Below are positions 19,594 to 23,965 of a stretch of 64,000 nt of DNA, in pieces. The notes below the pieces were generated by a model. That model was not told the origin of the DNA. It saw nothing but the letters and a program-made list of their open reading frames with translations, and made no database searches. Origin of the DNA: an uncultured Pelagibacteraceae bacterium. Lineage in GTDB: Bacteria; Pseudomonadota; Alphaproteobacteria; Pelagibacterales; Pelagibacteraceae. The translations under genes were made by a program, and so were the position numbers. Location: positions 62,001 to 126,000 of the forward strand of contig CACDZF010000001.1 of the NCBI GenBank assembly GCA_902557385.1, read 5' to 3'. Positions within the stretch are counted from its first letter, which is position 1. Each line of letters begins with the position of its first letter.

Positions 19594-19669
19594 GCCCTTG
19601 TAGCTCAGTTGGTAGAGCAATTGATTTGTAATCAATAGGTCCGCGGTTCGAATCCGTGCGGGGGCACCA
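19594..19669 (+). tRNA. tRNA-Thr (anticodon TGT), integration target
   Basis: A 76-base cloverleaf: acceptor GCCCTTG pairs with CGGGGGC using G-U pairs, the anticodon loop is TTTGTAA, and CCA is encoded. The 3' 47 bases, from the anticodon stem to CCA, recur exactly at 21286-21332, so this tRNA borders a small inserted island. Confidence 0.97.
19623..19669 (+). repeat. att-type direct repeat, copy inside intact tRNA-Thr
   Basis: 47 bases from the anticodon stem of tRNA-Thr to its CCA end, identical to 21286-21332. An identity block running from the anticodon region to the 3' end is the classical layout of tyrosine-recombinase sites in tRNA genes. Confidence 0.93.
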
Positions 19670-19732
19670 TCACTCAATAAAATCAACGTTAATTTTTTTT
19701 CAGTATTTAAGTTTTAATCAAATTTCTTTAGA

Positions 19733-19765
19733 GAGTGTGTATAGAGTGTGTATAGATTGTGTATC
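19733..19765 (+). repeat. Three tandem 11-base repeats near the island edge
   Basis: GAGTGTGTATA occurs at 19733-19743 and 19744-19754, then GATTGTGTATC at 19755-19765. The 11-base period is close to one helix turn, as in recombinase arm sites or repressor sites. They start 64 bases inside the tRNA-Thr edge. The remainder of 19670-19790 shows no gene. Confidence 0.85.
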
Positions 19766-19790
19766 AATCAAGAAGTCTTATAAATAAAAT

Positions 19791-20276
19791 TTATTTCCAC
19801 CAAGATTTAATACTATGGCTAAATTCTATAATTTTAATTTCTTCATCTTTTAAATATTTGGACATCCATTTTTTTCCCATATACCAAATCATTTGTTTTT
19901 TGGGTTTATGTAGGTCATTAAATTTATCTAAAGATAAAATAAAAATTTTTGATGAATTTTTATCATCAATAACAATTGCTAAATATGGTTTAAGTCCAAA
20001 AGCTTTGCAGGCGTTATTAATTTTTTTTGTAGTTCCTAATGTCGGTCCAATAACCATATGATCATTTTCAGTTCCTTCAGATCTAGATCTTGCTTTAACA
20101 GATATACCCATCCTTTCTGATGTATGAGGATTGTTTGCTATTAAATCTATGCCAACGTGATCAACATAGGCACATTCAAAACCATATTTTGAAAGCCAAT
20201 ACAAAACAAAGTGTTCTGCAAAATTTCCAGTTATCTTTGAGTGTCTACTACTTTTTGAAATTAAAATATTATCCAT
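19791..20276 (-). CDS. PD-(D/E)XK nuclease-like protein of the tRNA-Thr island
   Basis: 161 residues, no signal peptide. The N-terminal half fits a PD-(D/E)XK core: Glu21 in GNFAEHF, Asp44 in GIDLIA, and Lys61 in SVKARS. The usual Glu/Gln before V-K is a serine here, so catalysis is uncertain. The C-terminal half (about 95-161) has no motif I know. It lies 24 bases after the HNH gene on the same strand, so the two probably act together. The ATG at 20276 follows a short relic of a lipoprotein leader. Function in restriction or recombination is inferred from fold and neighbour only. Confidence 0.6.
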   Translation of the reverse strand: MDNILISKSSRHSKITGNFAEHFVLYWLSKYGFECAYVDHVGIDLIANNPHTSERMGISVKARSRSEGTENDHMVIGPTLGTTKKINNACKAFGLKPYLAIVIDDKNSSKIFILSLDKFNDLHKPKKQMIWYMGKKWMSKYLKDEEIKIIEFSHSIKSWWK

Positions 20277-20277
20277 T

Positions 20278-20304
20278 AACCACGATTCCTAAAAGTTTTT
20301 TCAT
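20278..20304 (-). pseudogene. Relic of a lipoprotein leader (27 bases)
   Basis: The minus strand reads ATG then codons for KKLLGIVV, matching 26 of 27 bases of the leader of the serine protease in the other island (23722-23748). Here the frame stops after 11 codons (MKKLLGIVVNG). Its ATG overlaps the TGA of the HNH gene (ATGA) and its end runs into the start of the PD-(D/E)XK-like gene. It may serve as a coupling leader peptide or be a recombination scar. Confidence 0.6.
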
Positions 20305-21191
20305 TTTTTATACTTGTTTAATCTATGATATTCTAAATACTTAAAATGTTCATTTTTAAAGTCTAATTTTATATCAGAATTAATGTTTAATTTCTCTAAA
20401 TCCTCGTCACTCAACTTATTTGATTTTATTAATTTTCCGTTTTCATCAAATGATATAAGACCAAGTTCGAAAATTTTATCTGCATTCGGTGATAGAGGAA
20501 GTCCATTAAATACATCAATTTTTTCTTTATCATCACACTTTGACCAAGGCTTAATGTGAGCTCCTATTAATAAATCTTTGTTTTGAACATCTGTTAAAAC
20601 ACATTTAACACCCCAATATTTAAATAACTGGTTTTTAAAATATTTTTGCCAAGTAGATGATCTAACATTAACTTTAAGTTTAGAATTAACACTGGATCCT
20701 GTTGGGGTATTTAAACTTTGTTCTACATAGTTTAAATTTATTTCTTCATTTTCATAATCAGTATTTAAAATTATATTAAATATTTCAGCGTTAATCTCAA
20801 AAAAATATCCTTGGTTCCCTCCTCCATCTGAATTAAAGGGACTGTATTTTTCAGGTAGATTATTTTTAATTTTATTAATTATATCATCAACGTGGATTGG
20901 ATCATCGAGTTCAATTATTTCTACATCGACTTTTCTGCCTTCTCTATCCCAAGAAGCACGTTTAAATTCTCTTGGGCAGTCAGCATCATAAGCTTTTGAC
21001 CTAACTGTAGAAATTGCTTTTATATATCTGTTGACTAAATGAATAACTCTATCACCTTCGTTAACTTCTAATAGCCTTTTATGATGATGCACTTCGTTTC
21101 CACTTTTATTCTTCTTAGGAGCCCATAGACAAGAAAGTTCTTTTTCTTCATCATAAGTATCACCTTGGAACACTAAGAAATATCTTGGCAT
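20301..21191 (-). CDS. EVE-like/HNH endonuclease (type IV restriction candidate)
   Basis: 296 residues, two domains. Residues 1 to about 110 resemble the EVE/PUA-type reader found in McrB-like and EVE-HNH enzymes: RYFLVFQGDTYDEE, LWAPK, EGDRVIHLVNRYIKAIS and a late W-REGRKVDVEI strand. Residues about 180-265 are an HNH nuclease of the HNH_2 type: CVLTD, AHIKPW (211-216), VFNGLPLSPNADKIFELG with Asn229. Enzymes of this architecture cut DNA carrying modified cytosines, typical of some phages. The role here is inferred. It is the first gene of the island operon; phased repeats at 21205-21226 lie just upstream. Confidence 0.72.
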   Translation of the reverse strand: MPRYFLVFQGDTYDEEKELSCLWAPKKNKSGNEVHHHKRLLEVNEGDRVIHLVNRYIKAISTVRSKAYDADCPREFKRASWDREGRKVDVEIIELDDPIHVDDIINKIKNNLPEKYSPFNSDGGGNQGYFFEINAEIFNIILNTDYENEEINLNYVEQSLNTPTGSSVNSKLKVNVRSSTWQKYFKNQLFKYWGVKCVLTDVQNKDLLIGAHIKPWSKCDDKEKIDVFNGLPLSPNADKIFELGLISFDENGKLIKSNKLSDEDLEKLNINSDIKLDFKNEHFKYLEYHRLNKYKK

Positions 21192-21204
21192 TAAAAAACT
21201 TTAT

Positions 21205-21226
21205 CACTGTGTTAATAGTGTGTACA
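21205..21226 (+). repeat. Two 11-base phased repeats at the far end of the tRNA-Thr island
   Basis: CACTGTGTTAA (21205-21215) and TAGTGTGTACA (21216-21226) match the 19733 unit at 7 and 9 of 11 positions. They sit 60-80 bases inside the outer 47-base repeat and also immediately upstream of the HNH gene start, so they could be recombinase arm sites, an operator, or both. Confidence 0.55.
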
Positions 21227-21285
21227 GATTTGAAATAACTTTCAATTAACGTTGATAGTATTTATCTTTTTGAATTTAGACTCTC

Positions 21286-21332
21286 GATTTGTAATCAATA
21301 GGTCCGCGGTTCGAATCCGTGCGGGGGCACCA
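21286..21332 (+). repeat. att-type direct repeat: displaced 3' part of tRNA-Thr
   Basis: 47 bases identical to the 3' part of tRNA-Thr (19623-19669), without the 5' half, so it cannot make a tRNA. The preceding base differs, which fixes the left end of identity. The next base after CCA begins the reverse-strand stop codon of NAD kinase. Confidence 0.93.
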
Positions 21333-22103
21333 CTAATTAACTTCTCTTCTTAATTGTTCAATTTTAATTTTTTTTTGAAGGCTTCTACTTTGATCATATA
21401 TAAGATTAAATTTAATTTTTTGATTAGTTTTAACAATAATATTTTTTGCATTTCTAACTTCAATATTATCAGCAACTGCACTAATTGGTCTTTTAGAAGG
21501 GTTTAAATTTTTAACAGTTATTTTTGATTTATCACTAACTATTTTTCCTTTCCATCTTCGAGGTCTAAATGGACTTATGGGTGATATTGATAATTTTTTT
21601 GAATTCAAACTTAAAATTGGTCCATGAACGGAAAGGTTATAAGCTGTACTACCAGCTGGCGTGGAAACCAACACTCCATCGGAAACTAAATTTTTAATTA
21701 CTTGTTTTGATCCATAATAAATTGATAAAGATGCTGCCTGTCTACTCTGTCTTAAAATTGAAACTTCATTAATTGCTAAATATTTTTTAATTTGATTTTT
21801 ATTATTTTTAACAGTCATTTCTAGAGGTGAAATAGTAATCATTTTAGCTTTTGATAAATTTTTTATAATATTTTTAGATGAAAACTTATTCATCAAGAAA
21901 CCATAATTACCTGAATTAATTCCATAAAATAATTTTTTAGAGTTTTTATTTTTTTTTAGTGTTTGAAGCATAAAGCCATCGCCACCAATAACTATCGTGA
22001 TATTAAATCTTTTTATTATAATTTTATTTAATTTTTTTACTAAAGCAGATTTTATACTTTTAGATTTTTTATTTTTATCAGAGATAATTTGTATTTTTGA
22101 CAT
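21333..22103 (-). CDS. nadK: NAD kinase
   Basis: 256 residues from the ATG at 22103 (MSKIQIISDK). The open frame runs 14 codons further, but that would start inside tRNA-Leu, so I reject it. The GGDG motif is at residues 40-43; INSGNYGFL, INE and LVSTPAGSTAYNLSVHGPI follow, all NAD kinase signatures. It phosphorylates NAD to NADP in the cytoplasm. The ATG is 6 bases after the CCA of tRNA-Leu, so both are likely co-transcribed. Its stop codon touches the tRNA-Thr island boundary. Confidence 0.93.
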   Translation of the reverse strand: MSKIQIISDKNKKSKSIKSALVKKLNKIIIKRFNITIVIGGDGFMLQTLKKNKNSKKLFYGINSGNYGFLMNKFSSKNIIKNLSKAKMITISPLEMTVKNNKNQIKKYLAINEVSILRQSRQAASLSIYYGSKQVIKNLVSDGVLVSTPAGSTAYNLSVHGPILSLNSKKLSISPISPFRPRRWKGKIVSDKSKITVKNLNPSKRPISAVADNIEVRNAKNIIVKTNQKIKFNLIYDQSRSLQKKIKIEQLRREVN

Positions 22104-22109
22104 CTTCAA

Positions 22110-22195
22110 TGGTGCCCTCGGCCAGACTCGAACTGGCACTCCCAAAAGGGCAAGGATTTTAAGTCCTTTGTGTCTACCAATTTCACCACGAGGGC
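22110..22195 (-). tRNA. tRNA-Leu (anticodon TAA), integration target
   Basis: An 86-base class II tRNA on the minus strand: acceptor GCCCTCG pairs perfectly with CGAGGGC, the anticodon loop contains TAA, and CCA is encoded. Its 5' half plus two upstream bases recur exactly at 23925-23965. Confidence 0.97.
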
Positions 22196-22197
22196 AT
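22157..22197 (-). repeat. att-type direct repeat, copy inside intact tRNA-Leu
   Basis: 41 bases from the anticodon loop of tRNA-Leu to two bases beyond its 5' end, identical to 23925-23965. The block extends to the 5' end, the reverse of the usual tRNA-site layout. Confidence 0.93.
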
Positions 22198-22213
22198 GAG
22201 TTATTTTCATGAG

Positions 22214-22242
22214 TATTTATGCTAATATTTATAATTGAACAA
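22214..22242 (-). promoter_or_regulatory. Probable promoter of tRNA-Leu and NAD kinase, on the island side
   Basis: On the minus strand TTGTTC (22242-22237) and TAAATA (22219-22214) are 17 bases apart, placing a start about 10 bases before the tRNA 5' end. It lies outside the repeated block, in island DNA, so the island probably supplies the promoter. Confidence 0.4.
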
Positions 22243-22267
22243 GTTTAATAAGTAAATTTTTTTTATT

Positions 22268-22300
22268 TTATCTCTCTATGTTCCAGTCATGCTCCAGTTG
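22268..22300 (+). repeat. 33-base island-end repeat, copy 1
   Basis: Matches 23767-23799 at 30 of 33 positions. Internally it holds two 11-base phased units, ATGTTCCAGTC and ATGCTCCAGTT. Possible recombinase arm sites. The short stretch 22301-22320 leads into the protease stop codon. Confidence 0.85.
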
Positions 22301-22320
22301 TCCCATAATATCCTATAAAC

Positions 22321-23748
22321 TTAATCAATATTTTTATACATAACTTTTTTTGATTTAAGACGCTCATATCTTTGAGCTGTCATGAAACAATCTAGATAAA
22401 CAGTTGCTTTTAGTATTTTTGCTCCAATATCATCTGTGGACATTTCTCTTCTGTTTGTTTGAATTGAATTAACATTATTTGCTTTAATAAACTGATGAAC
22501 AGTTGATGATTTAATCCCGAAGTTTGTTCCTTCAGGTATGGTGTCATACATCTCAAGTATTTTTTTATAATCCAATTTTGCGACTGCGACCCCAACTACA
22601 TTGCCTTTTTTATTGACTATTGGACCACCGCTATTACCAGGTTGTAGTGCAGCATCAATTTGAATATTAGAATAATTATTTGCTATTCCTGTAAGAGCGC
22701 TCACGACTCCTTTTGTGACTTTAACAGATGAGCTAACATCTTTTCCAAATGGAAATCCAGCAACATAAACATCTTCTAATAAATTTGCATCATCAATAGC
22801 TACAGGAAAAACATCATCAGGTTTGATATCTGTTTTCATTAAAGAAAGATCATTAGATCGATCAGTTGCAAGAATAGTAACAGGTGTCACTTTGCCTTTA
22901 TAATGTAGTTTTACAACATTACATGAATCAATTACATGGTTGTTGCTTAAAATATTCCCTGTATGATTAATAAAGAAGCCGGTACCTGAGCCAACCGAGT
23001 ATATTTTTTCATCATTAACTTGTTTTTCAGCTTTTTTCTTCTTGGGTTTTTTCTTCTCATGTTTCTCGTCTGTTTTTTTAGGTTTATCTTTTTCTGCAAC
23101 TATGGTTCTTTCACTAGTTATGTAAACTAAATCATCATTGATATCATATAGCGCTTTTCCTTTTTTATAATAAAACTCAATATTAGATACAAATTTTTTT
23201 CCTTGGTATCTTTTAACATTGTAATAATTTTGAAATATTTTGTTTGCATTTAATCTATTTTTTGCACAAAAAAATCTTGTTTTAAATGTTTGTTTGCCCC
23301 AACCAATCCAATCATCTAAAACTACAGAGCCATTTGGATTTTGATAGCCAAATAAGTAAGCATGCTTACCTTGAGCCCAACAATGATTCATTGCGGATAG
23401 CGGAATAATTTTTTTAAAATCTGGATATCCTATTATATTATTATATGATCCCGTCGGTCCAGGATCCAAAATTATGTAGTCTACAGATTTTGCATAAATA
23501 GAATAATCGTCAGCAAAAGTATTTTCTGGTTTCTTAGCTTTTTCTTCAGCTATACGTCTTTTTTCCTCTTCTTTTTTTGTATTAGTTTTTTTCTGATTTT
23601 GTTTTTGAGCCTCGAGGATAGCTTTTTGATTATTTGCATCTTGCTCAGCAGAAGAATAACTGCCACTTGATGGATACATGCCATAGTTAGTAGTTTCACA
23701 ACCACTTAAGATCAAACCCAGAACCACGATCCCTAAAAGTTTTTTCAT
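22321..23748 (-). CDS. Lipoprotein with trypsin-like serine protease domain
   Basis: 475 residues from MKKLLGIVVLGLILSGC; the frame also allows a start four codons earlier (23760). The leader ends in a lipobox (LSGC), so the mature protein should be a periplasm-facing membrane lipoprotein. A Lys/Glu/Gln-rich stretch that may be coiled coil follows (about 35-75), then a domain of about 150 residues I do not recognise, a Lys-rich linker near 225-245, and a DegP/trypsin-like protease domain with triad His in SNNHVID, Asp in RSNDLSLMK and Ser in QPGNSGGPIV. No PDZ domain is seen. It is the sole cargo of the tRNA-Leu island. Substrate unknown. Confidence 0.85.
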   Translation of the reverse strand: MKKLLGIVVLGLILSGCETTNYGMYPSSGSYSSAEQDANNQKAILEAQKQNQKKTNTKKEEEKRRIAEEKAKKPENTFADDYSIYAKSVDYIILDPGPTGSYNNIIGYPDFKKIIPLSAMNHCWAQGKHAYLFGYQNPNGSVVLDDWIGWGKQTFKTRFFCAKNRLNANKIFQNYYNVKRYQGKKFVSNIEFYYKKGKALYDINDDLVYITSERTIVAEKDKPKKTDEKHEKKKPKKKKAEKQVNDEKIYSVGSGTGFFINHTGNILSNNHVIDSCNVVKLHYKGKVTPVTILATDRSNDLSLMKTDIKPDDVFPVAIDDANLLEDVYVAGFPFGKDVSSSVKVTKGVVSALTGIANNYSNIQIDAALQPGNSGGPIVNKKGNVVGVAVAKLDYKKILEMYDTIPEGTNFGIKSSTVHQFIKANNVNSIQTNRREMSTDDIGAKILKATVYLDCFMTAQRYERLKSKKVMYKNID

Positions 23749-23766
23749 TATTAGAAGCATATAATA

Positions 23767-23799
23767 TTATCTCTCTATGCTCCAGTCTTGCTCCAGTTT
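23767..23799 (+). repeat. 33-base island-end repeat, copy 2
   Basis: Matches 22268-22300 at 30 of 33 positions, with phased units ATGCTCCAGTC and TTGCTCCAGTT. It lies just upstream of the protease gene start, so an operator role is an alternative. Confidence 0.85.
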
Positions 23800-23876
23800 G
23801 GAGTAATTAATTCAGTCTTATTTTGTGATATGAATTGAAATCAAAATTAAAGTTATGTGATTTTATAGGATGTTTT

Positions 23877-23906
23877 AGACTACCTTGGACTACTATGGAC
23901 TGACTT
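23877..23906 (+). repeat. Three phased 10-base repeats at the far end of the tRNA-Leu island
   Basis: AGACTACCTT, GGACTACTAT and GGACTGACTT follow each other at 23877-23906, ending 18 bases before the displaced tRNA-Leu block. The stretch from 23749 to 24045 (297 bases) holds these repeats, the att copy and the orphan promoter, but no gene. Confidence 0.65.
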
Positions 23907-23924
23907 TAACTTCTATCCCTCGCC

Positions 23925-23965
23925 TTTTAAGTCCTTTGTGTCTACCAATTTCACCACGAGGGCAT
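23925..23965 (-). repeat. att-type direct repeat: displaced 5' half of tRNA-Leu
   Basis: 41 bases identical to 22157-22197, in the same orientation. It contains the acceptor 5' strand, D arm and first part of the anticodon arm and then stops, so it is a tRNA relic. Confidence 0.93.

Follow-up and report, generated by a model that had tools for sequence, protein, structure and literature searches.

Elements Without Their Own Recombinase

Cis-mobilizable elements (CIMEs) are described, in the available part of PMC5704250, as elements with attachment (att) ends whose integration genes were lost and which move in cis through accretion, and the accessible portion of PMC3146451 reports 15 islands without integration modules at the ssrA gene of Dehalococcoides, where the recombinase is of the serine type. 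The units considered here are two mini-islands that stand on either side of nadK (NAD kinase), one at a tRNA-Thr gene and the other at a tRNA-Leu gene, in a window of 64,000 nucleotides (contig CACDZF010000001.1, positions 62,001 to 126,000) from the SAR11-type genome of an uncultured Pelagibacteraceae bacterium (G000; 0.96 Mb in 39 contigs, 81% complete). Streamlined SAR11 cells are thought to hold few recognisable mobile elements. Comparison with related genomes and viral contigs suggests that these islands are probably cargo-only elements moved in trans by integrases that are chosen through short words repeated on the island arms. If this is true, small integrase-less cassettes at two tRNA genes constitute an overlooked channel for accessory genes and would escape any search that starts from integrase genes.

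As far as the two sources describe them, CIMEs and the Dehalococcoides islands resemble the present islands in having att ends without a recombinase and in lying in tandem at one RNA gene beside recombinase-bearing elements. The islands collected from relatives likewise have att sites of an element family at their ends, lack a detected integrase in 71 of 72 cases (conjugation genes were not searched for one by one) and have tandem neighbours at both sites. They differ from CIMEs in that 47 of the 72 are shorter than 2 kb, in that no integrase remnants were found, and in that, in one case, the words changed while the cargo stayed. Miniature inverted-repeat transposable elements (MITEs) and clusters of attC sites lacking an integron integrase (CALINs) appear in the available text of PMC11389934 as helper-dependent elements. 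Judged from that text, the mini-islands share with integron cassettes and CALINs their small packages, a single orientation (136 of 147 island open reading frames, ORFs, point toward the intact tRNA) and a recombinase located elsewhere, whereas their boundaries are tRNA cores and lambda-type direct-repeat arms (attC sites were not searched for). Like MITEs they would be non-autonomous and recognised, through DNA motifs, by the enzyme of another element; unlike MITEs they carry genes and apparently depend on a site-specific tyrosine integrase at tRNA genes and not on a transposase.

Phage-inducible chromosomal minimalist islands (PICMIs) are marked, in the accessible part of PMC10803314, by an integrase of their own, AlpA, a primase and Fis. 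Two viral contigs discussed below (L079 and L105), which encode an integrase together with a DUF5906 protein, resemble such satellites, whereas the mini-islands show neither gene and the three cargo proteins of the window match no integrase or primase. Tycheposons, cited in the available text of PMC10872708 as elements of 4-200 kb with a tyrosine recombinase, are also tRNA-anchored cargo elements of streamlined marine bacteria; unlike them, the window units measure 1.6 and 1.7 kb and no recombinase was found in them. With their partial-tRNA direct repeats and empty sites in relatives, the units agree with tRNA integrative elements of the tyrosine type. Among the literature matches listed, largely from outside subscription journals, no title or start of an abstract described integrase-less SAR11 mini-islands with matched arm words.

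The Two Units and Their Sites in Relatives

In the window, an intact tRNA-Thr (TGT; 19594-19669, + strand), nadK and an intact tRNA-Leu (TAA; 22110-22195, - strand) stand in one row. The 3' 47 bases of tRNA-Thr constitute the Thr attachment core (19623-19669, +), which is repeated with 100% identity at 21286-21332 (+), at a start-to-start spacing of 1663 bases. The Leu core lies in the 5' half of tRNA-Leu and comprises 41 identical bases at 22157-22197 (-) and, displaced by a start-to-start spacing of 1768, at 23925-23965 (-); these repeats open an 84-base pair of copies that are 79% alike overall. Each unit has a partial-tRNA direct repeat at each end and leaves its tRNA restored. Perfect copies of tRNA parts 41-47 bases long are judged to be far beyond chance, and the 3' tRNA-Thr pattern occurs only in these two places in the window's genome, as far as it is assembled. 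Both the repeats flanking nadK and their spacings had been given by a sequence-only reading of the window, and they were confirmed here. The same reading had both repeat blocks begin at the anticodon arm of their tRNA; the tRNA origin of the blocks stands, and the polarity had to be corrected, with the 3' half being used at tRNA-Thr and the 5' half at tRNA-Leu.

The two units are accordingly opposite in polarity: the Thr mini-island (19670-21285; 1616 bases between repeats) follows the 3' end of its tRNA, and the Leu mini-island (22198-23924), with 1727 bases inside the 41-base repeats or 1729 when measured from the tRNA end, lies in front of the 5' end of tRNA-Leu. Integrative elements usually use the 3' tRNA half, as at the Thr site. 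The Leu island lies upstream and uses the 5' half, and would therefore also have to supply the promoter of the tRNA. A segment of about 45 bases that it carries 5' of tRNA-Leu (22198-22242, -) fits such a promoter brought along by the island. By eye, this segment is similar beside most of the tRNA-Leu genes listed (L034, L071, L116, L131, L148, L153 and L155 differ) and unlike the stretch that follows the displaced copy in the window.

Of 300 genomes of the genus, nadK was detected in 204, and its surroundings (stretches of up to 19.5 kb) were taken from 80 of the 204, mostly by similarity rank, with some short contigs passed over. Together with the window, this gave 81 parsed loci and 72 repeat-bounded islands, 31 at Thr (583-5682 bases, median 1307) and 41 at Leu (879-7737 bases, median 2068); the Leu side was read to at most 9403 bases, so that longer elements were missed. 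The displaced core copy is exact in 48 of the 72 islands and has at most two mismatches in 64. Both sites are hot spots in relatives. At tRNA-Thr, 26 loci hold an island, 21 are empty, 21 show a gap without a recognised repeat and 13 lack tRNA-Thr; in the empty sites (21 of 68) nadK lies 4-8 bases away in 19 cases and 159 bases away in two. At tRNA-Leu, 37 loci hold an island, in 22 the next conserved gene is reached without a repeat, 21 show no repeat in the stretch and one lacks tRNA-Leu. In L034 both sites are empty, with the chaC match starting 3 bases after tRNA-Leu. Arrays of two islands in tandem were seen at each site. The empty sites and the alternative cargo between the same repeats that the sequence-only reading proposed to look for were thus both found, and the fixation of the islands in all relatives that would have spoken against its proposal was not seen among the 81 loci. 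The count of 72 retains L135_L0, L143_L1 and L146_L0, whose cargo lies on the other strand and which show no arms; these may be chromosomal DNA between old repeats.

Matched Words on the Island Arms

By eye, typical islands repeat a word two or three times, at intervals of about 10-11 bases and at a similar distance from the core. These words vary among islands and agree between both ends of one island. In the Thr island of the window (word GTGTATAG) the phased repeats lie at 19733-19765 on the left and at 21205-21227 on the right (both +) and are proposed to be integrase arm-type sites. The Leu island has GTTCCAGT and GCTCCAGT on its left arm (22278-22299, +) and GCTCCAGT twice on its right arm (23777-23803, +), followed by core-proximal phased repeats (GACTACC, GACTACT and GACTGACT; 23873-23905, +). 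An exact 13-base inverted pair lies near the ends of the Thr island (19682-19694 on the left and 21244-21256 on the right, both given on the + strand), and the pair ATCCTATAAA / TTTATAGGAT was seen by eye at 22310-22319 and 23862-23871 in the Leu island, so that the phased repeats and the short exact inverted repeat noticed earlier were recovered in both units.

The agreement between ends was assessed in 68 of the 72 islands, after dropping the near-duplicates L141_L1, L143_L1, L146_L0 and L150_L0, in arm windows that were picked after inspecting the ends and with a permutation that ignores relatedness. On these terms, the local score between the left and right ends of the same island was 11.81 against 7.46 for re-paired ends at Thr (n = 31) and 17.73 against 8.98 at Leu (n = 37), none of 20,000 permutations being as good at either site. 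Exact repeated 7-mers common to both ends were found in 16 of 31 Thr and 23 of 37 Leu islands, with 2.8 and 3.5 expected (again 0 of 20,000). Neighbouring windows used as controls gave far weaker signals, the observed mean being reached in 629 (Thr interior), 2906 (Leu interior), 15,613 (Thr core-proximal) and 1543 (Leu core-proximal) of 20,000 permutations. The word pair of the window's Leu island was found in four of 399 genomes, its own included, and always within about 6.3 kb of nadK; in each of the other three genomes it occurs twice, the copies being 885, 1171 and 2990 bases apart, which is what the ends of one element should give. Taken together, the phased repeats behave as putative integrase arm-type sites.

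Integrases Inside and Outside the Islands

That the window units are integrase-less, as had been read from the sequence, holds: no recombinase match was obtained with the Thr cargo proteins of 161 and 296 amino acids (aa) or with the Leu cargo protein of 479 aa. In the whole set, an integrase was absent from 71 of the 72 islands by both phmmer and tblastn (E 1e-2), and no remnants were found either. The sole island with a detected integrase is L069_L0 (7737 bases; 545 aa), by both methods, and a search of the 81 whole stretches gave an integrase only in the stretch of L069_L0 and in one more, L051 (genome G202). The queries were 21 (phmmer) and 32 (tblastn) integrase or integrase-fragment sequences, plus one nadK from L157. 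Since they included the Thr integrases P0001 (the reference) and L156, which are 73-76% like that of L157, the integrase-less result stands. A scan with PF00589 matched 58 genomes among the 80 relatives, with a single match, the L069_L0 integrase of G168, inside a parsed island; the other matches were mostly open frames of about 307-326 aa, roughly one per genome. This family model fails on the most divergent of the integrases, the 522-aa protein of L171 being without any Pfam match, which is why the phmmer and tblastn tests were also used.

It could be supposed that a host XerD-like recombinase mobilises the islands, given that PF00589 matched such a protein (G000:C13:4543-5082) and no other recombinase in the window's genome at its 81% completeness. 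This single enzyme would have to serve many different arm words, and integrase-bearing elements use the same cores and the same words, which leaves the supposition barely conceivable. XerD-sized recombinases occur about once per genome in most of the relatives scanned.

Integrases fitting the islands are encoded on elements of 7.7-10.2 kb, some of which were found as viral contigs. At the Leu core, the viral contigs L079, L100, L105 and L109 each have an integrase of 545-549 aa adjoining the core; the ends of the 7.8-kb contig L079 overlap across the core, indicating a circular or tandem element of about 7.7 kb. DUF5906 primase-helicase proteins are present in L079 and L105, those checked, and L079 also encodes a RusA-like protein. 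In genomes, integrase elements of about 7.7-10.2 kb lie at tRNA-Leu in L180, L181, L182 and L183. The named records with relatives of these elements are five "uncultured Pelagibacteraceae" and one Pelagibacterales single amplified genome. The ends of the integrase-bearing Leu elements follow the plan of the mini-islands, and the core-proximal right repeats of L180 and L182 are closely similar to those of mini-islands, including the window's at 23873-23905.

The words themselves are shared. That of L180, GTACTGG (in longer form GTACTGGT), is found in the mini-islands L033_L0 and L126_L0; that of L182, GTGCTGG (GTGCTGGT), in L045_L0, L060_L0, L141_L0 and L143_L0; and that of L181, the L069_L0 element, TTTCTAG, in L119_L0, L124_L0 and L141_L1. 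At the Thr core, L074 (GCGGACA) and L157 (GTTGCAG; cut by the contig end, adjoining nadK in G248) encode integrases of the 328-aa type, and the word of L157 is that of the left arm of L137_T0 and, by eye, of L125_T0. Only these hand-checked pairs were used; the automatic list of cognates is loose, since a word as short as CTAGTTT fits several elements. Relatives of the integrases are rare: at E 1e-10 they were found in 5 (Leu type) and 13 (Thr type; two of them close, at 73-76%) of 300 genomes, which are incomplete.

A temperate phage had been named in the sequence-only reading as an example of a recombinase source. Pelagiphages such as HTVC105P might be thought to supply the integrase, since in HTVC105P and S35-C6 an integrase gene adjoins a perfect copy of the 41-base tRNA-Leu core. 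Their flanks are, by eye, without island words, and the HTVC105P integrase (297 aa) is of another type, so that among the three phages compared this source seems highly improbable and that part of the earlier proposal was not borne out. No pelagiphage record matched the Thr core; 25 hits were at 85-87%, of which 18 are annotated phage tRNA-Thr genes.

Other viral contigs have some of these features. Sixteen of them (L193-L208) were considered as a source because of the GCTCCAGT pair and set aside: they have a GC content of 48-62%, are without the core and look unrelated. Each carries several TGCTCCAGT repeats without a tRNA-Leu core, and two have an integrase-like ORF. The 5129-base L090 has a tRNA-Leu core and a mini-island-like left end (GTACAGGT twice), no right end being found, and the ORFs beyond that left end look PhoH-like and myophage-like by eye; it could be a phage that carries a mini-island, a phage whose own att end this is, or a chimeric contig. 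L082 and L110 hold the Leu core beside phage-like DNA, L082 with the tRNA-Leu upstream segment as well, and are perhaps the ends of prophages that use this core. The tRNA-Thr matches L072 and L073 were discarded, being by eye tRNAs without island arms.

Divergence of the Integrase N-Terminus

The closest pairs of Leu-type integrases suggest where the words may be read. Between L180 and L182, whose words are one base apart, identity is 52-66% in stretches of residues 1-150 and 94-96% in the remainder of the protein. L079 and L109, which have the same word, are 91-97% identical over residues 1-150 and 93-96% beyond, and L100, whose word differs from theirs by one base, compares with both at 63-85% over residues 1-150 and 93-99% beyond. 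Of the 55 differences between L079 and L100, 13 are at residues 81-104, mostly on two predicted strands (80-88 and 91-99) that precede a predicted helix (107-121). The model behind these predictions has a predicted local distance difference test (pLDDT) value of 79 and a predicted template modelling (pTM) score of 0.43, which makes the placement of domains unreliable, and only its local structure was therefore used. A Foldseek search of the PDB placed a lambda Int structure at the top and also retrieved, from HAI7, HPI and P4-like integrases, arm-type binding domains (probability 1.00, E 0.06-0.21, template modelling score by target 0.63-0.71); these arm-binding matches would fall on the N-terminus. 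In the closest pairs, then, the integrases appear to diverge mainly in an N-terminal, arm-binding-like domain when the word differs. The pairs are so few that no statistic was calculated.

Recent Spread of One Cargo

L057_L0, L124_L0 and L141_L1 are one and the same 2.6-kb integrase-less island, with 3-6 differences in 2205 middle positions, and the nadK genes of their hosts show 77-79% identity. Between L057_L0 and L124_L0 there are 48 differences in 2615 positions, 14 of them within the first 98, 29 within the last 144 and the remaining five between these; at both ends, the word GCTACTAGT of the one is GTTTCTAGT in the other. L141_L1 is similar to L124_L0 except that its left end holds each word once. 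In its att module, L057_L0 comes closer to L147_L0 (87%), an island with other cargo, than to L124_L0 (84%); for the L124_L0 module no comparable outside donor was found among the 41 Leu islands. Because the two ends are contiguous through the core in a circle, one replacement would suffice for the change, two separate events being the alternative. This is the one case of changed att ends with kept cargo.

Exchange of cargo by homologous recombination between tRNA-flanked hot spots, with the arm words as passive passengers, would also produce chimeric islands, and such chimeras exist at Thr, where L057_T0 and L138_T0 are 97% identical over 912 bases and unlike outside them. In L057, L124 and L141, however, the likeness does not carry on into the adjoining nadK, and divergence is greater at the att ends than in the cargo. 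Transfer of the island alone between diverged flanks was seen in this one triple. The matching of left and right words is left unexplained by such exchange, which is considered quite improbable as a general account.

Probable Movement in trans and Its Alternatives

The pathway that we infer starts from one or two cargo genes placed between the two halves of what would be a complete lambda-type attachment site, without a recombinase. The tRNA core would be the shared site, and the phased words of 8-11 bp on both arms would serve as an address that one kind of tyrosine integrase recognises with its N-terminal arm-binding domain. This integrase would be made by larger elements (~7.7-10.2 kb, with primase-helicase genes in those tested) that have the same tRNA core and the same word. 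When an active matching integrase is present in the cell, the mini-island would be excised in trans, would circularise and would enter a free core at tRNA-Thr or tRNA-Leu, with restoration of the tRNA (the 3' half at Thr; the 5' half and the promoter at Leu). In the circle, both arms would form one contiguous module of about 280 bp, so that a single replacement could re-address the cargo to another integrase. As vehicles between cells, satellite-like helpers with which the islands are packaged may be considered, or a tandem neighbour with which they are excised as a composite. Matched arm words would then allow the prediction, from sequence alone, of which integrase should move which island, and the words would provide a set of naturally occurring arm sites, matched to arm-binding domains that have diverged. 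A wider view is offered tentatively as quite possible: that SAR11 bacteria share a pool of re-addressable cassettes with a common tRNA dock, an arm word private to one integrase N-terminal domain and a replaceable module of about 280 bp, and that the integrases diversify this address domain faster than the rest.

Several observations weigh against movement in trans. No excised circle was seen. The search found no integrase with the window's own words (GCTCCAGT at Leu, GTGTATAG at Thr), none is known at the four loci with the Leu word pair (399 genomes), no viral contig with the window's Thr word was found, and the XerD-like protein is the one PF00589 recombinase that the window's genome shows. 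The count of long elements is too low: the 10.2-kb element of G202, which has an integrase, exceeds its stretch, L051, and stands outside the 72. No exact repeated 7-mer is shared by the ends of 31 of the 72 islands; the arms are unlike in L036_T0, L050_T0, L125_T1, L138_T0 and L145_T1, and none are visible in L037_L0, L055_L0, L065_L0, L065_T0, L070_L0 and L134_L0, nor in the three putative chromosomal segments L135_L0, L143_L1 and L146_L0. L125_T0 and L137_T0 carry GTTGCCA, not GTTGCAG, on the right, and the Thr interior control was weakly positive (629 of 20,000). Among the integrases, L105 and L181, with unlike words, are off-pattern, at 72-74% over residues 1-110, 53% over 111-150 and 49% and 69% beyond. 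Matched arms alone, finally, could be inherited from an integrase-bearing ancestor.

This last point leads to the view of the islands as decayed, CIME-like elements that lost their integrase, kept attL and attR and are moved, if at all, in cis by accretion. An integrase element in tandem with mini-island-type ends does exist (L183, L180), att ends are shared with integrase-bearing elements, and the same idea is published for Dehalococcoides and, as far as the available text goes, streptococci. On the other side, tblastn gave no integrase remnant in 71 of 72 islands, and ORFs of at least 80 aa fill 0.56-0.95 of each island. The numbers are also at odds with it, the 26 Thr and 37 Leu sites filled among 81 contrasting with integrase relatives in only 13 and 5 of 300 (incomplete) genomes. 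Moreover, one cargo remained unchanged while its att ends changed, and the neighbouring elements compared carry different words. Decay is therefore regarded as unlikely, and movement in trans is favoured over it by the combination of left-right word agreement, integrase elements with the same words and near-identical cargo in divergent hosts. The matched words and the same-word integrase elements likewise lend support to the earlier suggestion of cargo-only elements served by a recombinase in trans, the trans recombination itself being read from sequence.

Cargo and Neighbouring Genes

The Thr island of the window encodes a 161-aa protein (19791-20276, -) without family match, in which a nuclease-like D...K pattern is presumably present, and a 296-aa HNH_2 endonuclease (20301-21191, -; E 7e-10) that resembles type II restriction enzymes (E 5e-18). 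The cargo of the Leu island is a 479-aa lipoprotein-like protein with a Trypsin_2 / HtrA-type protease domain (22321-23760, -). Between both islands lies the host gene nadK (21333-22103, -).

Across the islands, the cargo scan covered 147 ORFs of at least 110 aa, families being taken from the first 25 of 118 Pfam and the first 25 of 57 PADLOC families. Among the families listed, the cargo is diverse and includes HNH and restriction-modification-like proteins, among others. Pilin-type N-terminal methylation motifs occur in 21 of the 147 ORFs and Trypsin_2 in four. In L033_L1 (5645 bases), ten consecutive ORFs of 102-191 aa may represent pilin-like arrays. L136_T0 (5682 bases) has GAAGTGAATTTG repeats at both ends without the usual end sequence and contains seven ORFs of at least 80 aa, with no integrase found. 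A further Leu-site type with another end layout, represented by L047_L0, L052_L0, L137_L0 and L150_L0, has ACTACACTAG at both ends, again with no integrase found.

A 31-base near-copy (94%) links the two islands of the window (20278-20308 and 23722-23752). It was considered as a shared att sequence and dropped, the copy at 23722 being the start of the lipoprotein-like gene. Variants of this lipoprotein-like start stand at the right ends of several other Leu islands (L033_L0, L045_L0 and L049_L0 among them), and the cargo genes may share a recycled secretion start.

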